A DNA stretch of 64,000 nt from Armatimonadetes bacterium 55-13 (lineage in GTDB: Bacteria > Armatimonadota > Fimbriimonadia > Fimbriimonadales > Fimbriimonadaceae). Position 1 is the first letter of the stretch. Each line of letters starts with the position of its first letter. Shown here one piece after another: positions 31,791 to 56,531 of this stretch. Under the pieces are notes generated by a model. That model saw nothing but the letters and a program-made list of their open reading frames with translations, had not been told where the DNA came from and searched no databases. The stretch is from NCBI GenBank assembly GCA_001898035.1, contig MKRX01000002.1, positions 1 to 64,000 on the forward strand, written 5' to 3'. The position numbers and the translations under genes were made by a program.

Positions 31791-32570
31791 ATGCCGCTGT
31801 CACCAGAGCAATTGAACCGAGCGTGGAGAGAGTTCAAAGTAGAAGGACATCCAACCGCGCGCGTTGAGTTGATAAATCACTATTCATATCTCGTTAAGAT
31901 CACAGCGGGAAGGCTTGTCACCAGTTTGCCTGGCGGCCTCGATCGAGAAGATCTCGTAGGCGCAGGCGTCATTGGATTGATCAAGAGCGTCGATCAATTC
32001 GATCCAAGCCGAGACGTTAAGTTTGAGACCTATGCGATCGCGTTGATTCGCGGCGCTATCTTGGAAATGCTGCGGGATGAGGACTGGGTGCCTCGTTCTA
32101 TTCGCGAAAAGCTCAAGGCTTTGGACAAAGCGATGTCAGCATTAGAGACCCGAATGGGGCGTCCGGCCAATGAAACGGAAGTGGCCGAGTTCATGGGGAT
32201 ATCGACCGCCGAAGTCAGCGAGTTGATGGTCCGCATGGGACGCACGAACATCTACTCTCTAGACGATATTTTGGGTACCGGAGACAGCGACGATCAGATT
32301 TCCTTTGTCGACATCTTGGTCGATGAGAATTCCAGTCCTAGTGGCGAGGTTGAAGGCAAAGAAATTCGCCGAATTCTGGCGTCGGGCGTCGACAAGCTTC
32401 CAGATCGCGAGCGCTTGGTCGTTGCGCTGTATTACTTTGAGGGTTTGACTTTTAAGGAGATTGGTCGCGTGCTTGGCGTTTCTGAGTCGCGCGTTTACCA
32501 ACTTCATACTCAGGCGATGACTCGTCTACGCAATTTCATGAAGCAGGAGGGGGCGGTCCCGGCACGATAA
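31791..32570 (+). CDS. FliA/WhiG-type alternative sigma factor (sigma-28)
   Basis: The 259-residue protein has sigma-70 region 2 (about 25-95, INHYSYLVKITAGRL, DLVGAGVIGLIKSVDQFDP), region 3 (about 105-160) and region 4 (about 205-255, LPDRERLVVALYYFEGLTFKEIGRVLGVSESRVYQ). The closest group is FliA/WhiG. In this group the sigma serves motility, chemotaxis or development. It lies between a small membrane protein and a small hydrophilic protein. Confidence 0.92.
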   Translation: MPLSPEQLNRAWREFKVEGHPTARVELINHYSYLVKITAGRLVTSLPGGLDREDLVGAGVIGLIKSVDQFDPSRDVKFETYAIALIRGAILEMLRDEDWVPRSIREKLKALDKAMSALETRMGRPANETEVAEFMGISTAEVSELMVRMGRTNIYSLDDILGTGDSDDQISFVDILVDENSSPSGEVEGKEIRRILASGVDKLPDRERLVVALYYFEGLTFKEIGRVLGVSESRVYQLHTQAMTRLRNFMKQEGAVPAR

Positions 32571-50379: not shown

Positions 50380-50420
50380 GGGCCTCATCTCTAAAAAGAG
50401 ACGGGGCCCTTTCTGTTTTT
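50380..50420 (+). terminator. Intrinsic terminator of atpDC
   Basis: GGGCC-TCA-TCTCT pairs with AGAGA-CGG-GGCCC, followed by TTTCTGTTTTT. It starts 18 bp after the atpC stop and ends at the last codon of the convergent gene. Confidence 0.85.
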
Positions 50421-52245
50421 AGTCCTGGTTCGCCGGACGAGCGAGGGCGTCTCTGAGGAGGCGCTCTACGCGTGGGCTGGAGTCGATTCCGATTACTTGA
50501 GCCCAGAGTCGATCTTGACGAATGGCTTCTCGCACCCCGAGCCCGTATCCGATGGCGGCAATGAGTGCGAAGGCAGGAATGGACGCCTGGAGCTGCTTCA
50601 TGGCGTCAGTAAGGCTTTGTTTGGCGAGAGACATCAGATAAGCGAGGAAGAGAGGAACCCAAGCGGAGAGAAGCGCGGCGAGGGTTGAGCTTGTTTGGGG
50701 AAGGTTCTCCCAGAAGTTCATGGGTCTTCTAGAGAGCCCTTGGTAAATGAACCAGAAGGTCACCGCCAAGAAGGCTACGCAGAGAACTTGTATCGACCAC
50801 TTTGGAATCGATGGTTTGATCCACTTGGCGATCAGATAAGGCGGGACCCAGAAAAGGACGAAAACGCTTGGTAGGCCGCTGGTCACTCCGAAGAGAATCG
50901 GGATAACGGCACAGAGTGCGCCGAGGGTGAGGGCGAACCAAGCGGATTTGGTGCGGCCAGGGAGTCTGAACAGAAGAAATGCCAGGAAGAACAGGCTAGA
51001 GGCGGCCAGGATGAGCGCCATAGAGGCTTTGCGCTCGACACTGAACGAGGCGAGAAATTGGATGCCGATGAGGATGCCGCAGACGTTCACCAGGTTTCGA
51101 CTGGAGGGATCGATTTGTGATCCCAGCCAGAGACTGGCTCCCAGGATGCCAATGAGCGCGAGAACGAAGAGCGAGTGAACTCCAAGCATTGGTTCGTCAG
51201 GTATCGCGGATTCAAACTCTTTCGGGACCTGTGGAGGTTGGTAGTTCGGCCTTTGATATGGTTCGAAGGATCTCCAGCCAGAGACCTGCAGCGAATTCGC
51301 TTTCTGAATGACGAATGCGATTTGCTTGGGGAAGTCCTCCTTCCGCGGTTTCTCGCCGACGAGGCTGGCCACACTACCGGTGATCAAGGCCGTTCCTACC
51401 AGCCGAGTGATCATATTGTCTTGGTAGCCTTCCATGAGCTTGCCTGCATGGGCGAGTCCCAGACCGGCTTGGAAGCGAGCCACTTCGGTGGGGAGCTGAG
51501 GCAGGATTCTGATAAGAGATTTGAAGTTTGCCAGGTGTGGAAAGAAGATGGAGGCGGATTCACGGCCAAGATCGGCGGGGAGGAGGACATCCAGTCTTGT
51601 ATGAATCGTCTCGACTCGGCGCTTGATTTCATCGAACACATAGTCGTCGTATTTGGTCTGAGACTGTGCTTGGATGAGAACCGGGGTGATCTCATCCCAT
51701 CGTTCCAGCTTGCAGAGCGCAGTGCACTTGGCGAGGCTGAAAAAGGCGTTCTTGGGATCAAGGGCTGCTCCCTGCTCGGCGGCGTTCAATTCTATTTGGG
51801 CAAGCGCCTGTTTACGGATCTCGTCGGTATTCACCGGCTCAACGGGGCGAATCTCAAGCCGACCCTGCGATGCGGTTGGGTGGGCCATCGTTGTCTCCGC
51901 CCCTTCTGGCTTATCTGGGACAGTACGGGTGGAGGTCTGTCGAATAACATGCGCCCAGAGTGCGGGATCTCTCCGCGTGGCAGCGAAGCCCGAGATCTCC
52001 ATGGCTCGAGTCTCGAGCGGGATTTGATAGCGGTTTGCGAGTAGCTCAGCAAGGCGGGCGTCTGAGATTAGACCTGAGATATTTGGCTCAGGCTTTTCGC
52101 TATATCCAACGCGTCGCTGATATTCGCCGGACAGCGTCCAGAATTGACGAACAGACTGGGTATGCGTCCCCGGCCAGAGCCAAAGGACAAGGATGATAAG
52201 GATCGACGCGAGCGAGCAGGTGAGTCTTAAATTGAGTCTTGCCAC
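50419..52245 (-). CDS. Large membrane protein of unknown family, third gene of an ECF operon
   Basis: The 608-residue protein has one N-terminal helix (about 10-26), a soluble region to about residue 350 with a helix-rich middle, and about eight hydrophobic helices in the C-terminal part (for example LFVLALIGILGASLWLG). No domain is recognised. It overlaps the end of the putative anti-sigma gene by 19 nt, so it is likely the effector or target gene of the ECF system. Confidence 0.75.
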   Translation of the reverse strand: MARLNLRLTCSLASILIILVLWLWPGTHTQSVRQFWTLSGEYQRRVGYSEKPEPNISGLISDARLAELLANRYQIPLETRAMEISGFAATRRDPALWAHVIRQTSTRTVPDKPEGAETTMAHPTASQGRLEIRPVEPVNTDEIRKQALAQIELNAAEQGAALDPKNAFFSLAKCTALCKLERWDEITPVLIQAQSQTKYDDYVFDEIKRRVETIHTRLDVLLPADLGRESASIFFPHLANFKSLIRILPQLPTEVARFQAGLGLAHAGKLMEGYQDNMITRLVGTALITGSVASLVGEKPRKEDFPKQIAFVIQKANSLQVSGWRSFEPYQRPNYQPPQVPKEFESAIPDEPMLGVHSLFVLALIGILGASLWLGSQIDPSSRNLVNVCGILIGIQFLASFSVERKASMALILAASSLFFLAFLLFRLPGRTKSAWFALTLGALCAVIPILFGVTSGLPSVFVLFWVPPYLIAKWIKPSIPKWSIQVLCVAFLAVTFWFIYQGLSRRPMNFWENLPQTSSTLAALLSAWVPLFLAYLMSLAKQSLTDAMKQLQASIPAFALIAAIGYGLGVREAIRQDRLWAQVIGIDSSPRVERLLRDALARPANQD

Positions 52246-52535
52246 GGGTTCTCCAGTTCGGTCGGAACTGAAGACGGACCCTCAAGACGTGCCTTTTCAA
52301 TGCTTCGAGCGGTGCTTTGAACCTCTTGCCGAGATACGCTGGGGCTGATCACGCCAAAAATAATGGCGGCAGCTGCAGGGAGCGCCTTTCTGACTCCGGC
52401 CACGACAGGGGTTAGATCCACGTCTTGGCACTCTTCTGAAAGCGCCCGATGGACCTGCTCGCCAAACGTTCGGTCAGATTCGACCGATTGAAGGGCGAAG
52501 TAGCTCTCTAGCGCATCCATGGGGTCTCGGTTCAT
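52227..52535 (-). CDS. Putative anti-sigma factor
   Basis: This 102-residue protein lies directly after the ECF sigma gene and is coupled to it by ATGA. It has a soluble N-terminal part (about 1-48), one possible hydrophobic helix (LPAAAAIIFGVIS) and a short C-terminal part. The position fits an anti-sigma, but no ZAS or other known motif is clear; this call rests on context. Confidence 0.55.
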   Translation of the reverse strand: MNRDPMDALESYFALQSVESDRTFGEQVHRALSEECQDVDLTPVVAGVRKALPAAAAIIFGVISPSVSRQEVQSTARSIEKARLEGPSSVPTELENPWQDSI

Positions 52536-53047
52536 TGCAGTTCCTCCCAAGCTTTTCGAAACGCAGACTTGGCGGCGTGGACACGCGAGGCGACGGTTCC
52601 CATGGGAATATCCAAGTTCTCCGCCAACTCTTTATAGCTCCATCCTTCACCCACGATGAGACTAAGAATCACTCGTTGGTCAGGGGGCAGCGTAGCGAGG
52701 ACGGATTGAACGAGAATGGTTTCCTGGTGGCTCGGAGTAGGAGCCTCCACATCATGGATGGGTGAGAACCGATCTTGGCGTTCCAAAGCGGTCAGGGCGC
52801 ATCTCACAACGATACGCTTCACCCACGCCACCTGGCTATCGGCCTGGGCCATGCGATCCCAACTCTTAAAGGCACGGATGAGGGCTTCTTGCGCCACGTC
52901 CTCGGCGGCGTCAACGCTTCCCATAATTCGCATCGCGATTCGGAAAGCGGTATCACGATACCGATTCAGGAAGTCTTCGACAAAGTCGACCTCACGCGAC
53001 AGGGCGCGGGAGGCGACGATCGATTTGGGGCGGAAGGCGTCATTCAT
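52532..53047 (-). CDS. ECF-type RNA polymerase sigma factor
   Basis: The 171-residue protein has region 2 (RDTAFRIAMRIMGSVDAAEDVAQEALIRAFKSW) and region 4 (LPPDQRVILSLIVGEGWSYKELAENLDIPMGTVASRVH). It lacks region 3, as is typical for ECF sigmas. It is the first gene of a unit with a putative anti-sigma and a large membrane protein. Confidence 0.92.
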   Translation of the reverse strand: MNDAFRPKSIVASRALSREVDFVEDFLNRYRDTAFRIAMRIMGSVDAAEDVAQEALIRAFKSWDRMAQADSQVAWVKRIVVRCALTALERQDRFSPIHDVEAPTPSHQETILVQSVLATLPPDQRVILSLIVGEGWSYKELAENLDIPMGTVASRVHAAKSAFRKAWEELQ

Positions 53048-53639: not shown

Positions 53640-53887
53640 GCCGACACAATAGCATGTTCAGATCAAGCGCGCAAAGTGGGACAAATAATGTGTTTGGCGG
53701 CTAACTCTGACAGGCCACTTTATGTTTTCCCGGCAAACCTAAAGTGATGCTTGAGCATTGTAGATTCGACGAAAAATATTTCAGAAAAGACCTGTAAATC
53801 TTCATTGGAATATGGAAGGGGCAAACCGAGAATCTTCTTGTCGGAAGCGCGATTATGGATGTCGCGCCAACACGGAGGATTCATTCG

Positions 53888-55096
53888 ATGCCGCTGTTTG
53901 CATACACAGCCATAGACCCCTCGGGGCGCACAGTTCGATCCACGATGGATGCGGACAACGAGCAATTGGTTTTAGCGAAACTTCGCGACCAATCGCTGCA
54001 TTGCACCGAGATCAAGCGAACCAACAAAGCCGCCAAGACGGGGGCTACGTTTGGCCGCAAGAAACTCAAACCGAAGAGCGTCGTGGTCTTTTCGCGACAG
54101 TTCGCAACGATGATCGATGCGGGTATTCCCATCCTGCGCTGTCTAGACATTCTGGGCACGCAGATGAAGGATCCGGCGATGCGGGAAGCGGTGGTTGCCG
54201 TGACCCAAGACGTCAAGAGCGGTATGACGTTGAACGAGGCGATGATGAAGCATCCGCACGTGTTCAACAAGCTCTACGTCAACATGATACGAGCCGCCGA
54301 AATCGGTGGCATTTTGGACAAGATTTTGGACCGCTTGGCAGGCTTTTTGGAGTACGAAGCGGAGATCAAAGGAAAGATCAAGGGCGCGATGATGTACCCG
54401 ATCTTGGTCTTGATCTTTTCGCAGTTGATGCTCTTTGTGCTCTTCAGCTTCGTTCTGCCCAAGTTCAAAGAGATTTTCAACGGGATGGATGTGGAGATGC
54501 CTCCCGTTACGGCCGCGCTCTTTAAGATCGGCGACTTTATGCAGGGACACTGGTGGATGATCCTCCTGTTCCTTGGTGGAGTCATCTTCGGAATTAAGAG
54601 CTGGGGCAAGACGCCCAAGGGCCGATATCAGCTTGACTATCTCAAGTTGAAGATTCCGATCGTGGGAGAGTTGTCGCTCAAGATGAGCATCGCTCGCTTC
54701 TCGCGAACGTTCGGTACCCTCATTAATTCGGGTGTTCCGATGCTGCGTAGCCTGGAAATCGTAGGCGAGACGTTGGGCAACGCAGTTCTTACGAATGCAA
54801 TCGAGCAGACTCGAACGAGCATTCGCGAAGGTCAGAAGCTTTCGCAACCCTTCTTTCAATCGGGTTTGTTCCCGAACATGGTCACCACGATGATCGACAT
54901 TGGCGAAGAGTCAGGACGACTCTCGGAGATGCTTGTGAAGATTGGCGACTTTTACGATCAAGAAGTGGAAGCGACGGTTAAAGGATTGACCTCAATGATC
55001 GAGCCGTTGCTGATCATCTTCTTGGGCGTCGTCGTCGGATTCATCGCGATTTCGATCATGACACCGATCTTCAAACTGGTCAACAGCGTGAAGTAA
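53888..55096 (+). CDS. Type II secretion / type IV pilus inner-membrane platform protein (GspF/PilC)
   Basis: The protein of about 402 residues has the GspF/PilC start (MPLFAYTAIDPSGRTVRSTM), two T2SSF domains (about 70-190 and 275-395) and three membrane helices. It drives pilus or pseudopilus assembly. GGAGG lies 10 nt before the ATG. It is 157 bp ahead of the sigma-GGDEF fusion gene on the same strand. Confidence 0.92.
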   Translation: MPLFAYTAIDPSGRTVRSTMDADNEQLVLAKLRDQSLHCTEIKRTNKAAKTGATFGRKKLKPKSVVVFSRQFATMIDAGIPILRCLDILGTQMKDPAMREAVVAVTQDVKSGMTLNEAMMKHPHVFNKLYVNMIRAAEIGGILDKILDRLAGFLEYEAEIKGKIKGAMMYPILVLIFSQLMLFVLFSFVLPKFKEIFNGMDVEMPPVTAALFKIGDFMQGHWWMILLFLGGVIFGIKSWGKTPKGRYQLDYLKLKIPIVGELSLKMSIARFSRTFGTLINSGVPMLRSLEIVGETLGNAVLTNAIEQTRTSIREGQKLSQPFFQSGLFPNMVTTMIDIGEESGRLSEMLVKIGDFYDQEVEATVKGLTSMIEPLLIIFLGVVVGFIAISIMTPIFKLVNSVK

Positions 55097-55253
55097 ACGA
55101 AAATTTGGGTCGGATTGCGGGCCTTGCGTAGATTCAAATTCGCAAAACCTAGCAATCCGACAAGCTGAAATTTGTCTTAGAAAGACCCGAGTTCAAGGAT
55201 GGATAAGGGTAGCCGGAAGGGATGACCGGCATTTGGATATCACGGAGTGAGGA

Positions 55254-56531
55254 ATGTCTGAATCTTTAGGATTGCATCAGGACGCAGAAGGCTTAGTTCT
55301 TCGATATTTGAAGGACCCGAAGCCGGACCTAAAAGACCTGATCATGGTTCAATATGCGAATTTGGTGGAGCGAATCGCCCGCCGGTTCAGCGGTATCGAG
55401 CCTTTTGAGGATCTGGTCCAAGTTGGGTTCATTGGCCTGCTGAATGCCCTGTCTAAATTTGACCCGGATGCGGGCGTACGGTTTAACACTTACGCCACCT
55501 ATCTGGTGGCTGGTGAGATCAAGCACTATCTGCGAGATCGTTCGCAGACGATCCGCCACCCAGCTTGGCTGCAAGAACTGCGGCACAAGGTGAACCGGAC
55601 GTCGGGCGTGCTTCAACAGTCGCTGGGGCGAATGCCTTCGAACCGCGAAGTCGCCGACGAATTGGGTGTGAGCGAAACCGCCGTTCAGGAAGTTTTTCAA
55701 ACCCAGGAAATGCTGCGGGTGGCCTCTTTGGACTCCGCTGCCCAGGGCGAGGACGATGGTTCGACCGAAAGCGAGAAGCTGGACGCTGCGGCATTTTGCC
55801 CCGAGCAACTGAGTGTTGAAGATCGAGTCGTGCTCGAACATGCCATGCGACAGCTGCGGGATTTGGAGCGCGAGGTGTTGCTCCACTTCCACTTTGACGC
55901 GATGAATCAGACCGAGATCGCGAACAAGCTTGGTATTTCGTGCAACTACGTTTCGCACATCCTTCGACAGTCGTTGGCTAAGCTGCGTAAGATCTTGTCG
56001 GCGGAAGAGGAGAAGGATCGGCTGCTGCGACGTCAGGCTGAAGTCATCGATTACGACGTGATCGACGCGACGACAGGCGCTTACACGGAGGGCTACTTCC
56101 GAACTCGACTCGAGGAAGAACTTCATCGAGCTTCCGCGAGCGACATGACGACGTCGGTCGTGGCGGTTAATTTCAAGGGGCTAGACACGATGCGTCAGTT
56201 TTACGGAGAGGCATCGGTTACAGACTTCTTGGCGGATGCTTCCGAGTTTTTGAAGAGCAACGTCCGACGACTGGATGTGGTGGCCCGAATGGGAATGACC
56301 GGATTTGCGGTGATTCTGCCTTCCACCGGTCACAACGCCAATGTGGTTCGACAGCGGTTGATCGATAAGGCTTCGAGCTGGATGATGGGTCGCTTTGCCG
56401 TCAATGGTCCAGTTTCCGTGGAGATAGGTCAAGTTACGGCCCCGACGGACGGACGAAACGGAATCGAACTGATGAAGTCGTTGGTCATGAAGCCCGTAGG
56501 CGAAGGCGAGCGACGCAGACAGGCGGCCTAA
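55254..56531 (+). CDS. Alternative sigma factor fused to a degenerate GGDEF domain with an intact RxxD site
   Basis: The 425-residue protein has an alternative sigma factor (SigB/F/G-like) in its first 250 residues: region 2 about 29-100 (DLVQVGFIGLLNALSKFDP), region 3 about 105-160, and region 4 about 190-250 (EREVLLHFHFDAMNQTEIANKLGISCNYVSHI). Then follows a GGDEF-fold domain about 265-415 (DATTGAYTEGYFRTRLEEEL and FAVILPST). The active-site signature is GMTGF (347-351) instead of GGDEF and the metal Asp in the LDxDxF strand is Asn306, so it should not make c-di-GMP. However, R338-x-x-D341 precedes the signature with the same spacing as the inhibitory c-di-GMP site. Ribosome binding site is GGAGTGAGG. 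Confidence 0.85.
   Translation: MSESLGLHQDAEGLVLRYLKDPKPDLKDLIMVQYANLVERIARRFSGIEPFEDLVQVGFIGLLNALSKFDPDAGVRFNTYATYLVAGEIKHYLRDRSQTIRHPAWLQELRHKVNRTSGVLQQSLGRMPSNREVADELGVSETAVQEVFQTQEMLRVASLDSAAQGEDDGSTESEKLDAAAFCPEQLSVEDRVVLEHAMRQLRDLEREVLLHFHFDAMNQTEIANKLGISCNYVSHILRQSLAKLRKILSAEEEKDRLLRRQAEVIDYDVIDATTGAYTEGYFRTRLEEELHRASASDMTTSVVAVNFKGLDTMRQFYGEASVTDFLADASEFLKSNVRRLDVVARMGMTGFAVILPSTGHNANVVRQRLIDKASSWMMGRFAVNGPVSVEIGQVTAPTDGRNGIELMKSLVMKPVGEGERRRQAA

Follow-up and report, generated by a model that had tools for sequence, protein, structure and literature searches.

Degenerate GGDEF domains that act as c-di-GMP receptors are already known, as in PopA and PelD, as is the control of a sigma factor by c-di-GMP through the anti-sigma factor RsiG. 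A 2021 account named RsiG–WhiG as the sole sigma/anti-sigma complex known to be a target of c-di-GMP, and in Rubrobacter its targets are type IV pilus genes (PMC8325347). PelD of Pseudomonas is a c-di-GMP receptor that has lost the GGDEF signature and kept the I-site. In PleD, the I-site for dimeric c-di-GMP is built from R359, D362 and R390 in one subunit, with R313 contributed by its partner (PMC7288161, PMC8041772). In the openly licensed literature that we searched, we found no sigma factor described as carrying its own GGDEF receptor domain; within that scope, the claim of a preliminary description of this locus that no protein of such a layout has been described stands.

Here, we analyze a sigma-GGDEF fusion gene from the phylum Armatimonadota. 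We show its architecture, the loss of its catalytic residues, a near-invariant I-site, linkage to pilC, GGA-loop hairpins in its leader and a terminal Ala-Ala, the last three being new features of the gene. The best explanation is likely a single-chain sigma factor controlled by c-di-GMP through a degenerate GGDEF receptor domain, a reading for which there are no binding or activity data.

A sigma factor fused to a degenerate GGDEF domain

The window analyzed here is a stretch of 64,000 nucleotides (positions 1 to 64,000, forward strand) of contig MKRX01000002.1 from Armatimonadetes bacterium 55-13 (Fimbriimonadaceae; GCA_001898035.1), a 4.5-Mb assembly of 27 contigs. In a contig scan, which reaches close relatives only, its nearest relatives in the genome collection were labelled Fimbriimonadaceae and other Armatimonadota. 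The fusion gene (55254–56531, + strand) starts with ATG and encodes 425 residues without an internal stop. Its sigma part (55254–55991, +) contains Pfam regions Sigma70_r2 (residues 33–97), Sigma70_r3 (108–170) and Sigma70_r4 (197–246), an order that fits the criterion for group 3 of the sigma-70 family, and has 22 residues that are invariant among 103 homologs. The best NCBIfam model is SigB/SigF/SigG (TIGR02980; 184.3 bits, below the cut-off of 234.35), and the FliA/WhiG model (TIGR02479) reaches 120.6 bits, also below its cut-off of 189.6. A helical linker (55992–56060, +) leads to the degenerate GGDEF domain (residues 270–408; 56061–56477, +), which is supported by PF00990 (E = 2e-14; 54 bits vs a cut-off of 23.8), the structure model and structure matches, and which scored 56.3 bits in a genome-wide GGDEF search. 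The preliminary description had placed a GGDEF fold after sigma regions 2, 3 and 4 in one frame, with GMTGF at 347–351, Asn306 in place of the metal-binding Asp, and R338-x-x-D341 at the spacing of the I-site; the Pfam analysis upheld the layout and all of these positions were confirmed.

The window also contains a second gene of the sigma-70 family (31917–32549, +; 270-aa open frame), which is 29% identical to the sigma part and too short to include a GGDEF domain.

AlphaFold2 modeled the whole protein with a mean pLDDT of 81 (about 90 in the GGDEF domain) and a pTM of 0.40, so the relative placement of the domains is unreliable. A single helix is predicted from residue 230, in the region-4 recognition helix, to residue 269, with lower confidence near 250–270 (pLDDT of the linker about 65–72). 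With VIA-align, the C-terminal part matched GGDEF structures at Z 16–19; the match to c-di-GMP-bound PleD (Z 18.8, 183 residues) had an rmsd of 6.7 over domain plus stalk, and many single-domain GGDEF matches had an rmsd of 1.7–3.4. Foldseek with the whole model returned mostly sigma factors.

The catalytic site is lost and the I-site is nearly invariant

Profile alignment of the sigma-linked GGDEF domain to PleD gave the equivalences N306 = D327, R292 = R313, R338 = R359, D341 = D362 and R368 = R390. Thus, in addition to the primary I-site R338-R-L-D341 (56265–56276, +), the alignment identified two I-site arginines that the preliminary description had left out: R292 (56127–56129, +), the equivalent of the arginine supplied by the partner subunit, and R368 (56355–56357, +), the third I-site arginine. 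Homologs for comparison comprised 103 distinct full-length sequences from fetched loci, a set later widened to 123. None of the 123 has an intact GG[DE]EF motif, of which GMTGF (56292–56306, +) is the remnant. Equivalents of PleD D327, N335 and D344 are mixed residues in the fusions, vs retention in 80/81, 81/81 and 80/81 other GGDEF domains of the phylum. The I-site shows the reverse: R338 is kept in all 123 homologs, D341 and R292 in 122 each, and R368 in 118, the remaining five having L, T or N at the position of R390. Among the 103 homologs, R338 and D341 are the sole invariant columns of the GGDEF domain.

RxxD alone was dismissed as weak evidence for a receptor, since 56 of 67 canonical GGDEF domains of the phylum also have it; the enzymes of the phylum carry 86% R and 85% D at its two positions. 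The complete four-residue I-site is present in 116/123 fusions vs 34/67 canonical domains (Fisher p = 5e-12, not corrected for relatedness). To allow for relatedness, changes were counted by parsimony along a tree of the 123 homologs (total length about 64 substitutions per site), with 0 changes at R338, 1 at D341, 1 at R292 and 5 at R368, against 48 in the median GGDEF column. The near-invariance of RxxD during decay of the catalytic site greatly exceeds chance, and the catalytic and I-site patterns are mirrored between the fusions and the true enzymes of the phylum. RxxD residues also play a structural role, so their conservation is not by itself proof that a ligand binds. Nonetheless, an enzyme turned c-di-GMP receptor would be expected to show just such a decayed active site with a kept I-site; that the domain is one is an inference made without binding data.

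Homologs lacking RxxD would have refuted the preliminary description, and RxxD was found as a pair in 122/123 of them. Its reading of the domain as a degenerate-GGDEF receptor for c-di-GMP is supported by R292, R368 and the mirrored enzyme pattern, with binding inferred. Its claim of a c-di-GMP-gated sigma factor is likewise supported, with both ligand binding and sigma gating inferred and not shown.

Three further residues on the helix that carries R292, namely R285, E288 and E289 (56106–56120), are nearly invariant in the sigma-linked domains and not in the enzymes of the phylum. They do not belong to the I-site and might possibly mark a surface that contacts a partner or the sigma part.

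The fusion is old, intact and common in Armatimonadota

Genome searches were restricted to the phylum Armatimonadota and did not cover other bacterial phyla genome-wide. Across the 291 genomes searched, most families had long matches that reach the GGDEF part, and well over 100 genomes have the full-length frame uninterrupted. This recurrence in independent genomes rules out a sequencing error or chimera as the origin of the fusion, an outcome that would have refuted the preliminary description. The fusion is not universal: some near-complete genomes among the 291 (for example G079, G090 and G092) had no match, and in the deep families f39–f43 and f45 the genomes tested matched only the sigma part. 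Among plasmids, 348 records matched, none covering more than 80% of the query, and those listed match the sigma part only. These results show that the fusion is old and intact, and common yet not universal in the phylum.

G079, G090 and G092 are nearly complete and belong to the same family, and as natural knock-outs they would be useful for regulon comparison.

Besides the sigma fusion, the host genome encodes 13 GGDEF, 4 EAL and 2 PilZ domains, from which we conclude that the host makes c-di-GMP. Two relatives with 1.5-Mb genomes (G132 and G133) each encode no GGDEF domains beyond a canonical one and that of the sigma fusion. Because PilZ proteins are also present, the fusion is not the sole possible receptor in these two genomes. 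They offer a minimal c-di-GMP circuit that is worth study.

The sigma gene is linked to pilC

A pilC/gspF gene for a type IV pilus or type II secretion platform protein (53855–55096, +; PF00482, E = 1e-63) lies 157 nt upstream of the sigma gene. A pilC gene (PF00482) is found directly upstream on the same strand, mostly 20–200 nt away, in 66 homologous loci from near and deep families, a count in which some loci represent one genome fetched by two routes. Two deep loci, L109 (52–5308) and L122 (251–5278), have the order T2SSE-T2SSE-T2SSF-sigma. The first T2SSE protein of L109 has an MshEN domain, and the pilC and sigma frames of L122 abut. MshEN is a known c-di-GMP binder. Thus, the sigma gene sits after pilC in most lineages and, in deep ones, inside a pilus ATPase-pilC operon. 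In several lineages (loci L095–L108), no pilC was found within about 4 kb of the sigma gene. The adjacent pilus or secretion platform gene noted in the preliminary description is hence PilC/GspF, and the link is real and old. It is suggestive of a pilus regulon without proving one; that pilus genes are targets of the sigma factor is an inference that could fall either way.

In some relatives, open frames of 871–884 aa appeared to join PilC to the sigma factor. Such a fusion was ruled out, as the upstream part is pilC read out of frame.

Upstream of the sigma gene, no SigB-type or flagellar-type promoter motif rose above shuffled expectation, leaving autoregulation through either promoter type without a supporting motif. 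Because no conserved motif of these types was found there, the regulon remains unidentified.

Near pilC, an ECF-type sigma factor gene (52532–53047, −) lies in a cassette (52227–53047, −) and is followed by a 107-aa frame that has no Pfam match and is a possible anti-sigma factor. Next comes a gene for a large membrane-like protein (50419–52245), and the whole forms a separate regulatory cassette adjoining pilC.

GGA-loop hairpins in the leader suggest CsrA control

The leader of the sigma gene occupies window positions 55097–55253, between pilC and the sigma gene. During the promoter search, we noticed hairpins with GGA in the loop in the pilC–sigma gap, with stems that differ between species. 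In the window, there are two candidate CsrA sites: hairpin 1 (55191–55204, +), with the loop AGGA and a stem that is partly G-U, and hairpin 2 (55212–55230, +), GCCGG-AAGGGATGA-CCGGC. The entire leader in the window folds better than its shuffles (z −3.65). Within the order, 64 sigma-gene leaders of 160 nt contained 41 GGA-loop hairpins vs 1 TCC-loop hairpin, and 154 other genes of the same loci had 9 and 13, respectively. This strand asymmetry suggests a feature of the RNA. Over the whole leader set, there were 49 GGA-loop hairpins vs a mean of 8 in shuffled leaders.

GGA in a hairpin loop is the recognition element of CsrA (PMC7652899). csrA is encoded in 40 of the 41 genomes searched, including the host genome, where it lies downstream of a flagellin-like gene and fliW. 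An Rfam search of the leader and the gene matched no family. The hairpins are shown, and binding of CsrA to the leader is a probable inference that no binding data yet support.

A terminal Ala-Ala resembles a ClpXP degron

The protein ends in RQAA, and its terminal Ala-Ala (56523–56528, +) is a candidate ClpXP degron. This ending is shared by 91/103 homologs (94/123 in the widened set), against a background of 22/766 other ORFs, and residues −3 to −15 before it vary freely. Four further sigma factors that the same search found in the genome lack this ending. ClpXP substrates are characteristically marked by a C-terminal AA, and alphaproteobacterial CdnL has a similar pattern, with over 80% of its members ending in AA or VA (PMC5324124). 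The host encodes ClpX, and its own tmRNA tag, ANNNYAFAA, has an end that matches the terminal AA of the sigma protein. The ending is frequent in the order (61/65) but rarer elsewhere in the phylum (33/58), which limits any role of proteolysis to an additional layer in particular lineages. On balance, we lean towards turnover of the sigma-GGDEF protein by ClpXP via the AA, an inference drawn without half-life data.

Discussion

We propose that the GGDEF domain no longer acts as a diguanylate cyclase and would instead serve as a c-di-GMP receptor through R292, R338, D341 and R368. As in PleD, a c-di-GMP dimer bound at the RxxD/R368 site of one molecule would also contact R292 of another and so cross-link the two; such bridging is suggested by the conservation of R292. 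The ligand would lock two sigma molecules as a dimer, and because a long helix joins the region-4 recognition helix directly to the GGDEF domain, the dimer would misplace region 4. At high c-di-GMP, the misplaced region 4 would leave the sigma factor unable to function with RNA polymerase; at low c-di-GMP, the monomer would direct a type IV pilus or surface-lifestyle regulon. CsrA on the mRNA leader would set translation and ClpXP on the Ala-Ala would set lifetime, both probably limiting the amount of protein. We infer that binding of c-di-GMP by the I-site is likely, and the same holds for control of sigma activity by the ligand. The inhibitory sign and the dimer mechanism are inferences on which the case is evenly balanced and which the sequence does not reveal. 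The sign is the weakest step, and the reverse is possible.

Several other explanations deserve consideration, and the confidences placed in them overlap because the sign and stability routes are variants of one receptor model. One of these variants holds that high c-di-GMP activates the sigma factor, either through ligand-driven dimerization or by freeing region 4 from a contact with the GGDEF domain that keeps it inhibited. Sequence alone does not tell the direction, and in Vibrio cholerae the pilus extension ATPase MshE is under direct control of c-di-GMP (PMC8325347), so pilus genes may be wanted at high c-di-GMP. However, the nearest known c-di-GMP/sigma system, RsiG–WhiG, is inhibitory (PMC8325347, PMC13232838), and binding at the I-site immobilizes domains in PleD (PMC7288161); we consider activation slightly the less probable sign. 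In the other variant, c-di-GMP would govern stability, with the ligand exposing or hiding the Ala-Ala for ClpXP, which would amount to conditional proteolysis like that of PopA/CtrA in Caulobacter within one chain. PopA, a receptor with an RxxD site, hands CtrA over to ClpXP (PMC12564702), a parallel that makes ligand-controlled degradation a serious alternative. The frequency of AA in the order and overall, far from its background, and the free variation of the residues before it also speak for this route. Nevertheless, 29 homologs lack AA and nearly all of these have the I-site, so that AA is not obligatory for the switch; the route remains a possibility.

The remaining rivals would do without c-di-GMP. 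The GGDEF domain could be purely a protein-protein or dimerization module, in which R338, D341, R292 and R368 are kept for structural reasons or for contact with a partner such as an anti-sigma factor, PilC or the sigma domain. The near-invariance of R285, E288 and E289, which lie outside the I-site on the R292 helix, points to an interaction surface there, and RxxD is widespread in GGDEF domains generally. Against this, the conserved set spans all four ligand-contact positions of PleD, scattered over the domain sequence, and about half of the enzymes keep the fold yet have an incomplete four-residue set, which makes a pure contact module unlikely. Alternatively, the domain could be a receptor whose ligand is some other nucleotide, for example cGAMP, c-di-AMP or a linear one of the (p)ppGpp type. 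In favor of this, cGAMP is the product of some GGDEF enzymes (PMC6456294), and the PleD structures 9g85 and 9g86 contain ppGpp or pppGpp along with c-di-GMP. However, the four residues are precisely those that touch c-di-GMP in PleD, and a ligand at the GTP site is unlikely because the GTP-site positions are scrambled. We regard this explanation as very improbable.

If the c-di-GMP receptor model is true, a second messenger would be wired directly to promoter choice by a sigma factor with its own receptor, and the family would show the conversion of a cyclase to a receptor, its catalytic site decaying and its feedback site frozen. The gene would give a first handle on gene control in Armatimonadota, a phylum with few studied members, and the compact domain could be used in laboratory strains as a ready-made c-di-GMP-dependent transcription part. 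A bolder reading, to which we would give no better than equal chances, is that of a phylum-wide one-component c-di-GMP-sensing sigma factor, which would combine CsrA, c-di-GMP and ClpXP layers in one gene and act as an old master switch of the surface and pilus lifestyle without need of an anti-sigma factor.

Comparison with known systems

RsiG–WhiG of Actinobacteria resembles the proposed system in that an alternative sigma factor is under the control of c-di-GMP (PMC8325347). There, c-di-GMP is bound by a separate coiled-coil anti-sigma factor, whereas the putative receptor in Armatimonadota is a GGDEF fold covalently held in the sigma factor, and the sigma part scores closer to SigB/SigF/SigG than to WhiG. 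The preliminary description had called the protein a direct counterpart to RsiG–WhiG; this holds by analogy only, as SigB/SigF/SigG outscores FliA/WhiG (both below their cut-offs) and the model has no separate anti-sigma factor. CsrA/RsmA target leaders are similar in having GGA in a hairpin loop near the start codon and CsrA in the genome (PMC7652899), and differ in that binding is not shown for the sigma gene, whose product is a sigma-receptor fusion.

PopA of Caulobacter is likewise a non-catalytic GGDEF protein that keeps RxxD, and ties a transcription regulator to ClpXP proteolysis (PMC12564702). It is a response-regulator adaptor that acts on another protein, whereas in the sigma fusion the putative receptor, the transcription factor and the AA are in one chain. 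PelD shares the loss of the GGDEF signature with retention of the I-site, along with the receptor role that we propose for the sigma fusion, but is a membrane protein for exopolysaccharide that contacts neither DNA nor RNA polymerase. With respect to the I-site of PleD and WspR, PleD R313, R359, D362 and R390 all have conserved equivalents in the sigma fusion; PleD and WspR are active cyclases, whereas the active site of the sigma fusion is gone.
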